Positions 13,307-17,116 of a stretch of 64,000 nt of DNA are shown here, piece after piece. Origin of the DNA: Ensifer sp. WSM1721. GTDB taxonomy: Bacteria; Pseudomonadota; Alphaproteobacteria; Rhizobiales; Rhizobiaceae. Where the stretch lies: assembly GCF_000513895.2 (NCBI RefSeq), contig NZ_CP165783.1, positions 620,001 through 684,000 on the forward strand, in the 5' to 3' direction. Every line of letters starts with the position of its first letter. The stretch's first letter is position 1. The notes under the pieces are model-generated. The model was given only the letters and a program-made list of their open reading frames with translations, had not been told where the DNA came from and searched no databases. A program made the position numbers and the translations under genes.

Positions 13307-13334
13307 ACTGATCGGCATGCATGACAGGCACCCT
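13307..13334 (+). repeat. 28-bp direct repeat, left copy
   Basis: Starts four bases after the thiD stop. The core GATCGGCATGCATG followed by A-CAGGCACCCT recurs at 16728-16755 with one mismatch in 28 bases. The two copies frame the 3.4-kb block holding the fusion enzyme, GntR regulator, OsmC gene and transposase remnant. Confidence 0.7.
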
Positions 13335-13428
13335 CGACTGGATCCACGACGAGCAGCTTCGCAAGACCACGACCGCCGAACTGAACAAGGGCAAAAGCCG
13401 CAACAGCCTTGTGCCTGCCGGCAGGACT

Positions 13429-15000
13429 TTATGAAAATCTGCTACTCATCCTACCAAAATAGAATAATTCTTTCCCTGGCTCCGGTGCTGAATCTGGAAA
13501 TATGATGTATCCGGCGTCCGGTGCATTAATCTCTTCACCGGACGCTCTGTGGGCTATGATGTCGCCTGCGCCGACCTGATCGCCGGTTTTCCATGCCTTA
13601 GCCAAGCGATCATCAGGATCCTCGGCAAATATCACATCTACAAGCTCGATCGCCCACTTGACGGTCCGTTCCGGAAAAGGCGCATCGATGAGTTTCAAGG
13701 CGGCAAGGGCCCGGCGTATGGCGTTCGCTGCGATGACGGGCGCTTGTGAATCCAAGTGCGAACCACATTCGAGAGTGACGCCATAGCCACCGGCAAACCG
13801 CATGTATTCTGTCGTCCCCACACCGGACGACAGCGAGAGTGTCAACCCGCCATGGCTCCACTCTGCACGGCCAGTTCCTGCCATCAAGGCGTTCACATTG
13901 GTGGAAAGCCAACCGTGGAGGATCAGATCTGGTCCTAATACGGAAGCAAATGCTTCCTCTTCAGCAGCGCGCGCGAATGGTTCGATCAGGCTATCGTGGT
14001 CTCGCGGCCCGACAAACACGAAAGGAGATCCCTGAGATCGAAACGAGTGCAGGTCCAAAAGGACGTCGTGCTCCCGCATCATTGCGCAAATCTGGTTCGC
14101 GACGTAGTCTTCATACTGCTTCGGTACGGTTACTTCGCGCAGGTCTCGGTTGAAATTGCGATCCCCTTCGCGCTCGCCTTTCAAGAACGCTTTCAGGTTC
14201 ACGACGGGAACAAAGGTTACCAACCCGCGCTCAATCTTCAGCTTACGTCCTGTGCATTCGGCGATAATTGCCCGGATTGCCTGGGGGCCGCATATTTCAT
14301 TGCCATGCACCGCACCCAAAACGAGAAGGCGCGGTCCCGGCCGCAGGCCTCTGAATTGGTATATCTCGATCGGGCCCGGCTGAGACGGCTGCTTATCCGT
14401 TGGTTCGTCGAAATCGATGTCGATGATCATGCCCGGCACGAGCCGGGAAACAAGGCGTTGCAGATCGCTTTCCCGGACCGCGACGCATCCCGCAGTTCCC
14501 GACATGTCGGCTTTGGCAGCGTGAATGAAAAGCGCGCTTCCCCGATACGGCTCCACGCTGGCGTCATTGTAACCAATCGGCACGACGATATCGAACGGGA
14601 GCTCCGACCGTATCCTGTTGATGCGCTCTGCGTCCGGAGCGCCCCCGGGAGTAATCGTGAGGCGATTGTAAGTCGGGCTCTCGGCGTCCTCTTCCCAAAC
14701 CATTTCGTCAGTCATAGGAACGAGCGGGAACGACAATCCGGAGGACGGAGGCGTCCACCGGCTGGAATTGAATAAACCGTACCGAAGCGGAAATACGCCG
14801 ATGGGAGTGCAGCCATCGCCCTCCCGCTTCAGTGAGGCCACGATCAATCCACCGCGCCCGACAACACAAGGGACCGTCCATTCGCCGATAGACAGTGTTC
14901 CATGGTGCAATTTCGTCGAGTTGCGCGGAACACGAACCTTCACCGTTGGAAGATGACGTTCATGAGGAACGACTGAGGCCACAGGAAGAAACTCCACCAT
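13429..15000 (-). CDS. fusion of a YkuD-type L,D-transpeptidase domain and a succinylglutamate desuccinylase/aspartoacylase (M14) domain
   Basis: 523 residues from ATG 15000, preceded by AAAGGAGCCCGGC. Residues ~25-190 are YkuD-like: GTPIGVFPLRYGLF-type strand (here DGCTPIGVFPLRYG), LFIHAAKADMSG with the conserved His, and TAGCVAVRESDL with the catalytic Cys. Residues ~215-520 are an AstE/AspA zinc carboxypeptidase: GAVHGNEICGPQAI supplies His and Glu of the zinc site, LLDLHSF the second His, and VTLECGSHLD the catalytic Glu. No signal peptide is seen, so it may be cytoplasmic. Neighbours are a FadR-type regulator (80 bp upstream, same strand) and a divergent OsmC gene. I do not know a pathway for this combination; substrates could be N-acyl amino acids or small peptides. 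Confidence 0.8.
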   Translation of the reverse strand: MVEFLPVASVVPHERHLPTVKVRVPRNSTKLHHGTLSIGEWTVPCVVGRGGLIVASLKREGDGCTPIGVFPLRYGLFNSSRWTPPSSGLSFPLVPMTDEMVWEEDAESPTYNRLTITPGGAPDAERINRIRSELPFDIVVPIGYNDASVEPYRGSALFIHAAKADMSGTAGCVAVRESDLQRLVSRLVPGMIIDIDFDEPTDKQPSQPGPIEIYQFRGLRPGPRLLVLGAVHGNEICGPQAIRAIIAECTGRKLKIERGLVTFVPVVNLKAFLKGEREGDRNFNRDLREVTVPKQYEDYVANQICAMMREHDVLLDLHSFRSQGSPFVFVGPRDHDSLIEPFARAAEEEAFASVLGPDLILHGWLSTNVNALMAGTGRAEWSHGGLTLSLSSGVGTTEYMRFAGGYGVTLECGSHLDSQAPVIAANAIRRALAALKLIDAPFPERTVKWAIELVDVIFAEDPDDRLAKAWKTGDQVGAGDIIAHRASGEEINAPDAGYIIFPDSAPEPGKELFYFGRMSSRFS

Positions 15001-15081
15001 GCCGGGCTCCTTTGAGTGCTCATGAATTATCGCCGTAACCTGGGTCGGCCCGGCCGGCAAAGGCCACGCTCGTGTGGACGC

Positions 15082-15693
15082 TCACCCGGTTTGCGCTTCA
15101 AGCAAACACTTCCTTGCCCGTTCGATGTGGTCCTTTAGCAAATTCACGGCATCATCAGCCCGTTTTTCAATGTATGCGCAGGTAATCTTCTCGTGGTCGT
15201 CAAGCCAGGATGGCGTTTCATCGATCAGCTTGTCGTACTGCACCGAATACATGATGCAATTTCTGCGCAATTCCTCGACCATCGCAACCTGTCGGTGACG
15301 ACCCGCGGGCGCGTATAGCGTCGAATGGAAGAGCCAGTCACCTTCGATCCATCCCGATCTGCCAGCTTCAAGAGCTGATTTTTGAAGAGCGTACCTGACC
15401 TCGGCATAATGCGCCTCGGTGACCGACGCCATCGCATGCCGCAGCAGGTCGCCTTCCAAGAGAATTCTTAAATCGAAGACGTGCGAGAGCTCGTCCCGAT
15501 CGAGTTCGATCACCTGCGCCCCTTTGCCTGGCACGAGGGCGACCAATCTTTCCGAGGCAAGTTGCTGCAACGCGTCTCGCACCGGGATGCGGCTCACCCC
15601 AAATCGTGCAGCCAGGTCGGTTTGAGATAGCCAGGTCCCGGGCGGAAGTACGCCTTTGAGGATTTCCGATTTCAATTGTTCAGCAACCGACAT
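15082..15693 (-). CDS. GntR-family regulator, FadR/FCD subfamily
   Basis: 203 residues from ATG 15693; the longer in-frame extension runs antisense through the OsmC gene and is rejected. Residues ~1-65 are the winged helix (LKSEILKGVLPPGTWLSQTDLAARFGVSRIPVRDALQQL, shown here in parts). Residues ~75-195 form the all-helical FCD domain with metal-ligand type residues in FDLRILLEGDLLRHAM, DWLFHSTLY and DDHEKI. FCD regulators usually sense organic acids. It lies 80 bp upstream of the fusion gene on the same strand and divergent from OsmC, with a perfect palindrome between. Confidence 0.88.
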   Translation of the reverse strand: MSVAEQLKSEILKGVLPPGTWLSQTDLAARFGVSRIPVRDALQQLASERLVALVPGKGAQVIELDRDELSHVFDLRILLEGDLLRHAMASVTEAHYAEVRYALQKSALEAGRSGWIEGDWLFHSTLYAPAGRHRQVAMVEELRRNCIMYSVQYDKLIDETPSWLDDHEKITCAYIEKRADDAVNLLKDHIERARKCLLEAQTG

Positions 15694-15714
15694 CTTGCTT
15701 GCTCGTTCGTTTGC

Positions 15715-15728
15715 GTATACGCGTATAC
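15715..15728. promoter_or_regulatory. perfect palindromic operator in the GntR-OsmC gap
   Basis: GTATACGCGTATAC is a perfect 14-bp palindrome 22 bp upstream of the GntR start and 56 bp upstream of the OsmC start. FadR-type GntR operators are commonly built on a GTnnnAC or GTATAC core, so this is the likely binding site for the regulator at 15082. Confidence 0.6.
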
Positions 15729-15783
15729 ATACCAGAAATCGCGACGCGCACAAGGAGAGCGATATGCGTAAAGGGGGCCCGTC

Positions 15784-16233
15784 ATGGAAATGACCGTCGA
15801 GGTGCACTGGGAGCGAGAAGGGGCAGTCTTCACCGACAAGCGTTACAGCCGGGCGCACATCTGGCGCTTCGACGGCGGTCAGGTCGTGCCGGCGTCGGCT
15901 TCGCCACATATCGTTCCGCTTCCATATTCCGTCGAAGCCAACGTCGATCCAGAAGAGGCCTACATTGCGGCGATTTCCAGCTGCCATATGTTGACTTTTC
16001 TCTCGCTGGCAGCGCCCAAGCGGATCGTCGTCGAGAGCTATACCGACAAGGCGACCGGCGTGATGGAGAAGATCGACGGAAAATTGGTCGTCAGCCGCGT
16101 TGAGCTCAAACCGACCATCGTCTACGCCGGGGAGCAGCCAACCGCCGCACTGGAAGCGGAACTGCACCACCTGGCGCATGAACAGTGCTTCATCGCCAAT
16201 TCCGTCAAGACGGAAATCCAGGTGGTCACTTGA
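15784..16233 (+). CDS. OsmC-family protein
   Basis: 149 residues. The two redox cysteines are in AAISSCHMLTFLSLAA (first) and HEQCFIANSVKTEI (second), the standard OsmC/Ohr arrangement; the acidic residue is in VDPEEAYIAA. OsmC proteins reduce organic hydroperoxides or act on acylated or thiolated small molecules. The start has AAAGGGGG upstream. Divergent from the FadR-type regulator with a shared palindrome, so probably in the same regulon as the fusion enzyme. The pairing suggests either peroxide defence or a thiol/ester step in the same pathway. Confidence 0.85.
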   Translation: MEMTVEVHWEREGAVFTDKRYSRAHIWRFDGGQVVPASASPHIVPLPYSVEANVDPEEAYIAAISSCHMLTFLSLAAPKRIVVESYTDKATGVMEKIDGKLVVSRVELKPTIVYAGEQPTAALEAELHHLAHEQCFIANSVKTEIQVVT

Positions 16234-16384
16234 GAAATCTATCTCCGCCGCGATTGATCGGCAGATACCTGGGACCGAAGACAGGGTGGCCGTCGGACCC
16301 TATTCCATTGCCAATCTAGCCTTCAGCGCCTGTCTCAAGCTGGCGCTGAGGGCTGGACAAAACGACGAGGCACGGGGTCGTCGA

Positions 16385-16596
16385 TCACTTGAACCGTTCC
16401 CTGTCAAGCCCTTGCGCGATTACGTTGACATAACGAGCAGCGCCGCCCGAGCGTAGCATACCCATGATCCCCGAGATCACCCGCCAGTCATCGACACGCC
16501 GGCTCCCCGCCGGCCTTGCGGCAAATGCGGCTGGATTGCCTCCCATTCCGCATCCGACAGCCAATGCACCTCGCGAAACGATCCGGCCTTTTCCAT
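16385..16596 (-). pseudogene. IS5-family transposase N-terminal remnant, frameshifted
   Basis: On the minus strand one frame reads WLSDAEWEAIQPHLPQGRRGA, the opening of IS5-type transposases. After a one-base shift a second frame reads RRVDDWRVISGIMGMLRSGG, the expected next block. The sequence then loses similarity and stops at 16385. No DDE residues and no terminal inverted repeats are seen, so this is a dead fragment. It marks past transposition beside the fusion-enzyme block. Boundaries are approximate. Confidence 0.65.
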
Positions 16597-16727
16597 CATC
16601 GCGATACTAGGCTTCTTCCTGCGCGAAGGTGGCCCATCCACTGAGATATTATGCGGGGTTGGCGACGAAGATTCACGATCCATTCGGTCTTAGCGTGTCT
16701 GGAGGAACAAATCTTGCTCCGACCCCA

Positions 16728-16755
16728 ACTGATCGGCATGCATGGCAGGCACCCT
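16728..16755 (+). repeat. 28-bp direct repeat, right copy
   Basis: Differs from the copy at 13307 by one base (ATGG for ATGA after GATCGGCATGC). Both copies lie in the same orientation. It is 130 bp beyond the transposase remnant. Confidence 0.7.
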
Positions 16756-16852
16756 TTCCGACGGCTCGCGGAGGCGATGCCTCGCTGTCGCCACTGTTGA
16801 CCCGCAGCATGACGCCGTTGATGGTTAACGAACGGCAGTCGGTTGCAGCGAT

Positions 16853-17116
16853 ATGCACTTCTTTACCCGCAGACTTGAGGCCTTCAATCGCGACGACCTG
16901 CCGGATTGGCGGCAGTCGCCAAACGCTTTGCGGCGAGTCCTTCTGATCGTCCCGAGCCTTGCCGAGTATTTTCTCTTCTATATGCTGGCACTCGTAGCGC
17001 TTGCGGCGCTCGTAGTGCTGATGGTCGCCGGTTGGATTATCGGCGTTGATCGTCGCTCGACATGGGCGCGCGCCGAATCCCTGGCGTTGCATGAGCGGGC
17101 GCGGATACGCCGGTGA
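16853..17116 (+). CDS. possible small single-pass membrane protein
   Basis: 87 codons with an amphipathic N-terminus (LEAFNRDDLPDWRQSPNALRR) followed by a long hydrophobic stretch (SLAEYFLFYMLALVALAALV and on to WIIG), then a charged tail. The composition looks protein-like, but there is no convincing ribosome site before the ATG and no family I recognise. It lies in the repeat-rich gap between the OsmC and CapA genes. An overlapping minus-strand frame is equally open. Low confidence. Confidence 0.3.
   Translation: MHFFTRRLEAFNRDDLPDWRQSPNALRRVLLIVPSLAEYFLFYMLALVALAALVVLMVAGWIIGVDRRSTWARAESLALHERARIRR

Follow-up and report, generated by a model that had tools for sequence, protein, structure and literature searches.

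The gene at 13429..15000 (minus strand) of the window, the 64-kb stretch of Ensifer sp. WSM1721 DNA analysed here as a whole, encodes a protein of 523 amino acids which is a true, selected fusion of two known enzyme families with a coherent catabolic context. To judge from its sequence, a YkuD cysteine domain and an AstE/AspA zinc-hydrolase domain are both intact in one chain. The fusion is undescribed as far as our literature search reaches. Full-text queries combining 'YkuD' with 'aspartoacylase' and 'YkuD' with 'succinylglutamate desuccinylase' retrieved no paper from a collection in which subscription papers are mostly outside coverage, so that a mention elsewhere is possible, and among the matches listed by a looser search no title is evidently devoted to a YkuD-AstE fusion. 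This agrees with the original prediction, made from the DNA alone, that no described pathway contains such a protein.

Two intact domains in one reading frame

The reading frame extends from an ATG at 15000-14998, which has AAAGGAG shortly before it as a plausible ribosome-binding site, to a stop codon at 13431-13429 and contains no internal stop. The claim that it joins two families is borne out by Pfam, since both matches lie above the curated cut-offs and the domain search did not reduce the protein to a single family. YkuD (PF03734; 4.9e-11, 43.9 bits versus a cut-off of 23.4) covers residues ~41-195 (14416..14880, minus strand), while AstE_AspA_cat (PF24827; 2.8e-13, 50.3 bits versus 25) covers residues ~221-333 (14002..14340, minus strand). 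According to the structural match, the AstE half reaches approximately residue 520 and takes in Glu411. Both domains are detected in all 32 fusion proteins subjected to a Pfam scan at E 0.001.

Alignment of these 32 proteins reveals that His160, Gly171 and Cys172 of the YkuD half are invariant, as they are in a 22-row alignment including stand-alone relatives. Likewise, His232, Glu235, His318 and Glu411 of the AstE half vary neither among the 32 fusions nor in a 46-row alignment. We take His160 and Cys172 (YkuD) as well as His232, Glu235 and His318 (AstE) to be the putative catalytic or zinc-site residues, and Glu411, whose counterpart in DoeB lies in the TEL-G-G region, presumably acts as general base. 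The active-site residues proposed to be kept in both halves are, in the fusion alignments, indeed invariant.

Both halves are under purifying selection with a dN/dS of about 0.1. Calculated according to NG86, the ratio for the whole fusion is 0.12 against the copy of Agrobacterium arsenijevicii (L033) and 0.10 against that of L080. Considered separately, the YkuD and AstE halves give 0.10 and 0.11 against L033 and 0.10 each against L080, with dS near saturation.

Location and relatives of the YkuD half

In 41 of 51 stand-alone YkuD relatives the match begins no more than 40 residues from the first start codon; the other ten have longer, mechanically delimited reading frames. In the fusion protein itself, YkuD begins within about 20 residues, and a crude test, with an N-terminal hydropathy of 1.63 versus 2.31 for a solute-binding protein, makes no export signal visible. 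Since its YkuD group is mostly leaderless, the fusion protein is probably cytoplasmic. Short, mostly leaderless YkuDs with the motif K-x-EGDG-x-TP (L004-L032 and L093-L113) are widespread in Alphaproteobacteria.

L,D-transpeptidases make up the majority of the YkuD proteins characterised so far; in the classical YkuD motifs an Arg follows the catalytic Cys. Fused and stand-alone members of the present group share the motif G-C-[VI]-[AGV] with no Arg after the Cys. A PDB profile search at E 0.01 matched the group to none of 177,635 solved-structure sequences. The structural model of residues ~17-198 (mean pLDDT 81.8) gave no Foldseek match at E 0.001 or better; its fold matches are mostly L,D-transpeptidases, with carboxypeptidases and transpeptidases tied. 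As far as ORF lists of the surroundings tell, neither L093 (wide locus L134), which among the stand-alone YkuDs comes closest to the fused clade, nor two single-domain paralogues of the window's own genome (L135, L136) provided a functional lead.

The OsmC/GntR/fusion unit and its insertion

Upstream of the fusion gene and in the same direction lies a gene for a GntR-family regulator with an FCD domain (15082..15693, minus strand; Pfam GntR 4.4e-17, FCD 3.5e-16), from which the gene of an OsmC-family protein diverges (15784..16233, plus strand; Pfam OsmC 3.7e-13). The compact unit described previously is thereby confirmed. The regulator is 82% identical to its copy in L080 and 93% to that in L081, and OsmC 86% and 93%, respectively. 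Between gntR and osmC the perfect 14-bp palindrome GTATACGCGTATAC is found (15715..15728), which occurs only once in the 64 kb of the window and is kept in all three OsmC-GntR intergenic regions compared. It is probably the operator of GntR, which makes the earlier assumption that the unit possesses an operator of its own a likely one.

The same arrangement is present on plasmid pT173a of Ensifer canadensis, whose fusion protein is 73% identical. On pRCCGE525c of Rhizobium jaguaris (L081:5944-6651) OsmC, GntR and the palindrome are kept, while the fusion is shortened to a 235-residue YkuD half. As it is seen only in the window and in these two species, the OsmC/GntR neighbourhood does not represent the general setting of the fusion. 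In Agrobacterium arsenijevicii (L033:7772-9581; fusion 84% identical) the DNA match continues as far as the 3' portion of gntR and resumes only with 31 bp of osmC, which suggests that most of gntR and the operator have been deleted there; the deletion seems to have taken most of osmC as well.

The whole unit resides on a 3.4 kb insertion (13328..16771). In G024 (L152), the congener with the most similar thiD (95%), the site is empty and the flanks, which are 94.9% and 97.0% identical, abut. The GC content is about 0.57 across the unit versus 0.59-0.64 around it. A 28-bp direct repeat marks the edges of the insertion (13307..13334 and 16728..16755, both plus strand; 27 of 28 positions identical), and a short remnant resembling a Tn3-family transposase (13324..13431, plus strand; PF01526, E 2.1e-4), whose match is weak with 20.6 bits against a cut-off of 24, sits at its left edge. 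For 16235-16456 and 16629-16943 the Pfam scan found no family.

Distribution and origin of the fusion

All distribution figures rest on genome scans. The main survey, which comprised one genome per species among named genome records and reaches fairly close relatives only, yielded 47 loci: 29 with an intact fusion, one split, one broken and 16 matching the AstE half only. The possibility of an assembly join or a frameshift artefact was rejected in view of these 29 intact copies and of the presence of both domains in 32 of 32 fusion proteins; a split of the window's gene by a sequencing frameshift, considered beforehand as a potential objection, was not seen. In Paenochrobactrum gallinarii (L057:7959-9524) YkuD and AstE are encoded by two neighbouring frames with an in-frame stop between them, at a site outside the transporter operon. 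The broken copy (L078) was excluded from alignments, trees and context tally. All intact fusions of the survey which carry a credible label belong to Hyphomicrobiales or Rhodobacterales. One locus labelled Bacillus subtilis SK6B4 (L052) is near-identical to Pseudochrobactrum; the assembly is probably mislabelled or contaminated.

The fusion recurs but is rare. The window's genome harbours one copy in addition to two matches to single-domain paralogues. Counting this genome in each case, a fusion is present in one of 33 genomes of the genus and in 4 of 397 of an order sample, in which five genomes contain AstE only. In a class sample, with up to three candidates scored per genome, the window's own genome is the only one of 385 with a fusion and the remaining matches are single-domain; among 100 relatives, too, the sole full-length match is to the own genome. 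Of 19 matching plasmid records, four cover at least 80% of the fusion protein.

In the YkuD tree the fused YkuDs, together with the split and the shortened copy, are separated from the 51 stand-alone relatives by a branch with an SH-aLRT value of 100, and this single clade indicates that the fusion probably arose once. The AstE tree, whose 37 fusion rows include the identical pairs L116/L124 and L122/L047, requires at least four changes between the labels "fusion" and "AstE-only", with Bosea-type AstE-only copies and one of Microvirga brassicacearum grouping with Microvirga fusions. Taken together, both trees suggest one fusion event with later loss of YkuD in some lines, a polarity which we infer, as the AstE root is not fixed.

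Peptide transporter operons around the fusion

Genes of a dipeptide/oligopeptide ABC transporter are located directly upstream of the fusion gene, on the same strand, in 25 of 34 distinct loci. This tally includes the window, counts one duplicate a single time and omits L084 and L114-L116, which are short or duplicate; L122 is a duplicate of L047. Families of the neighbours were assigned by Pfam on representatives. Nine of the 25 transporter loci, all from Microvirga, additionally contain genes for an MlrC-type M81 peptidase and an Amidohydro_3 protein, and 15 a LysR gene and a gene for a beta-lactamase-like hydrolase; L054 ends at a contig edge. None of the fusion loci listed combines MlrC with the beta-lactamase-like gene. 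The loci with no such transporter nearby are the window, L033-L036, L047, L080, L123 and L124. An identical MlrC/amidohydrolase/Dpp operon type characterises 14 AstE-only loci, and in the sister operons of Bosea and its relatives the AstE half stands alone at the end with no YkuD.

The solute-binding proteins of the transporter operons resemble general peptide binders more than they do the murein-peptide binder. The beta-lactamase-like protein, which has no sequence match in the PDB at E 0.1, displays SxxK and SSN motifs in all 15 copies. Its activity is not assured, however, as a KTG-like triad is recognised by pattern in only six of them.

On a plasmid of Sulfuriferula nivalis (L083:1-10921) the gene of a more distant AstE relative (44%) closes a series of genes for ATP-grasp, argininosuccinate-lyase, cysteine-synthase-like and MFS proteins, which adjoins an acyl-homoserine-lactone synthase gene. 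This locus looks like a small-molecule biosynthetic cluster, which implies that the AstE group of the fusion may occur in such clusters.

Possible functions of the fusion protein

We consider the chances even that the fusion works in the cytoplasm as a peptide hydrolase with two catalytic sites and belongs to a pathway of peptide uptake. Small peptides containing D-residues would be imported via the dipeptide/oligopeptide ABC transporter. The YkuD half, acting as an L,D-carboxypeptidase like ElsL, would remove a C-terminal D-amino acid, whereupon the AstE half would cut a second amide or isopeptide bond in the manner of CphZ or of Pgp1 in the Pgp2-Pgp1 sequence. The neighbouring MlrC-type M81 peptidase, amidohydrolase or beta-lactamase-like serine hydrolase would complete the breakdown. 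In the window, the fusion would be controlled by its own FCD-type GntR, with OsmC divergent; the 3.4 kb insertion around them would be mobile, and the transporter would have to lie elsewhere in the genome. The original prediction was open-ended and suggested that the protein may process acylated amino acids or peptides, such as an N-acyl or a cross-linked substrate. Since in 25 of 34 loci the fusion directly follows the transporter, one side of this guess, the hydrolysis of imported peptides inside the cytoplasm, gains ground, whereas a role in cross-linking the cell wall is unlikely because no export signal is visible.

The assumption of two-site trimming is based on three precedents, a leaderless carboxypeptidase, isoaspartyl dipeptidases among AstE proteins and the Pgp2-Pgp1 pair. 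In the accessible text of PMC8649774, ElsL of Acinetobacter baumannii is a leaderless, cytoplasmic L,D-carboxypeptidase; like the fused YkuD it is a YkuD cysteine domain with no evident signal peptide, but it consists of a single domain, and the two are likened by description. AstE-annotated proteins, as far as the accessible source material tells, include isoaspartyl dipeptidases. CphZ (PDB 8ein/8eip), which hydrolyses a cyanophycin isopeptide dipeptide, exhibits an AstE-type fold but, according to the part of PMC10206079 available, no YkuD domain. It shares ~17-19% identity with the AstE half in the structural alignment, and no cyanophycin genes were noticed at fusion loci. A functional analogy is offered by Pgp2/Csd6 and Pgp1/Csd4, in which, as the accessible part of PMC3961634 describes, a YkuD L,D-carboxypeptidase and a zinc peptidase (D,L-carboxypeptidase) act in succession on one stem peptide, converting tetra- to tri- to dipeptide; unlike the fusion, however, these are separate proteins working on the cell wall outside the cytoplasm. 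The structural matches include Pgp2, Csd6 and Csd4. Of these, Pgp2 and Csd6 are tied with transpeptidases, and DoeB, rather than Csd4, is the nearer neighbour of the AstE half.

The Glu of the Adda-Glu bond cut by MlrC is D-configured and iso-linked. In the accessible portion of PMC4810221, MlrC is the enzyme which cuts this bond of microcystin, and MlrB belongs to a penicillin-recognising family. Relatives of one or the other, an M81 peptidase or a beta-lactamase-like hydrolase, also belong to the fusion's transporter operons, a hint that the peptides contain D-residues. For the mlr system itself, that portion describes neither a transporter nor a YkuD-AstE protein (PMC4810221). A two-site hydrolase is opposed by the facts that the activities of all members are predicted, that nine of 34 loci including the window lack the transporter, that Bosea-type operons manage without YkuD and that a deacetylase is the nearest structural neighbour of the AstE half. 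The absence of L,D-carboxypeptidase activity reported for the cytoplasm of A. tumefaciens (PMC9790009, accessible text) and the resemblance of the binding proteins to general peptide binders count against it as well.

Chemically, a murein stem peptide would be the most attractive substrate, as one candidate among others. We tentatively envisage, as a rather unlikely special case, that the YkuD half takes D-Ala off L-Ala-gamma-D-Glu-mDAP-D-Ala, that the AstE half then cleaves gamma-D-Glu-mDAP and that L-Ala-D-Glu is left to the MlrC-type peptidase; with the same reserve we regard the idea that this degradation takes the place of LdcA and Mpl in bacteria lacking AmpG. The credibly labelled intact fusions all fall into Hyphomicrobiales and Rhodobacterales, and the accessible text of PMC9790009 reports Rhizobiales and Rhodobacterales to be without AmpG. 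This fit may, however, reflect sampling, as the survey reaches only fairly close relatives, and even in those orders the fusion is rare (4 of the 397 genomes in the order sample, one of 33 in the genus). The window's genome has no LdcA match and no Mpl match above the cut-off, and A. tumefaciens is reported to lack both in the same text, whose authors propose that released peptides are degraded by enzymes which that text does not name (PMC9790009). The cleavage of the Adda-Glu bond by MlrC (PMC4810221, accessible portion) would conform to this chemistry. Conversely, the cytoplasm of A. tumefaciens is described in the text on this species as devoid of L,D-carboxypeptidase activity (PMC9790009, accessible text), although the organism has two YkuDs with no signal peptide, and the murein-peptide binder is not the closest relative of the operon binding proteins. 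Slightly more doubtful still is the complete scenario in which a one-chain cytoplasmic dismantler of murein peptides, aided by a dedicated ABC importer and by a peptidase of the MlrC-like or beta-lactamase-like kind, would allow Hyphomicrobiales and Rhodobacterales to eat stem peptides, bypassing LdcA and Mpl, and would spread among rhizobia as a GntR-controlled mobile cassette.

The AstE half might instead be a DoeB-like N-acyl-amino-acid deacylase, a specific form of the original guess, in which case YkuD would strip or transfer a D-residue or an amide carried by that N-acyl compound. DoeB and its relatives are its best fold matches, the N-acetyl-diaminobutyrate deacetylase DoeB/EutE (PDB 6twl, 6twm) being nearest, and weak profile matches point in this direction. 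These profile matches, the only ones in NCBIfam and all on the AstE side, are, however, far below the cut-offs (DoeB equivalog TIGR02994, 21.1 versus 402.7 bits; aspartoacylase NF002601, 28.1 versus 180 bits). As, moreover, fold alone shows no substrate, the context in 25 of 34 loci is one of peptide uptake and no ectoine genes were noticed beside the fusion, we judge this improbable. A synthetic or exchange role, in which a cytoplasmic YkuD transpeptidase exchanges a D-amino acid or forms an amide, with AstE editing what it makes, would suit the prevalence of L,D-transpeptidases among characterised YkuDs and fold matches as well as the biosynthetic-type surroundings of the Sulfuriferula relative; it conflicts with the transporter and hydrolase context of most loci and the lack of a visible export signal, and appears quite remote. 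Finally, a functionless passenger on a mobile fragment or an assembly join, for which the sporadic occurrence (1 of 33 congeners) and the shortened copy in Rhizobium jaguaris might speak, is hardly credible in the face of 29 intact copies among 47 independent loci, a dN/dS of about 0.1 in both halves and a conserved operator.

Implications

A two-site hydrolase in one chain and linked to a peptide importer, the reading we prefer, would provide a concrete single-gene test of the idea that stem peptides are degraded, as put forward in the accessible text of PMC9790009. It offers an entry point to the short YkuDs, a widespread group which has no sequence-level match among solved structures, and it may reveal a YkuD domain which serves catabolism rather than wall building.
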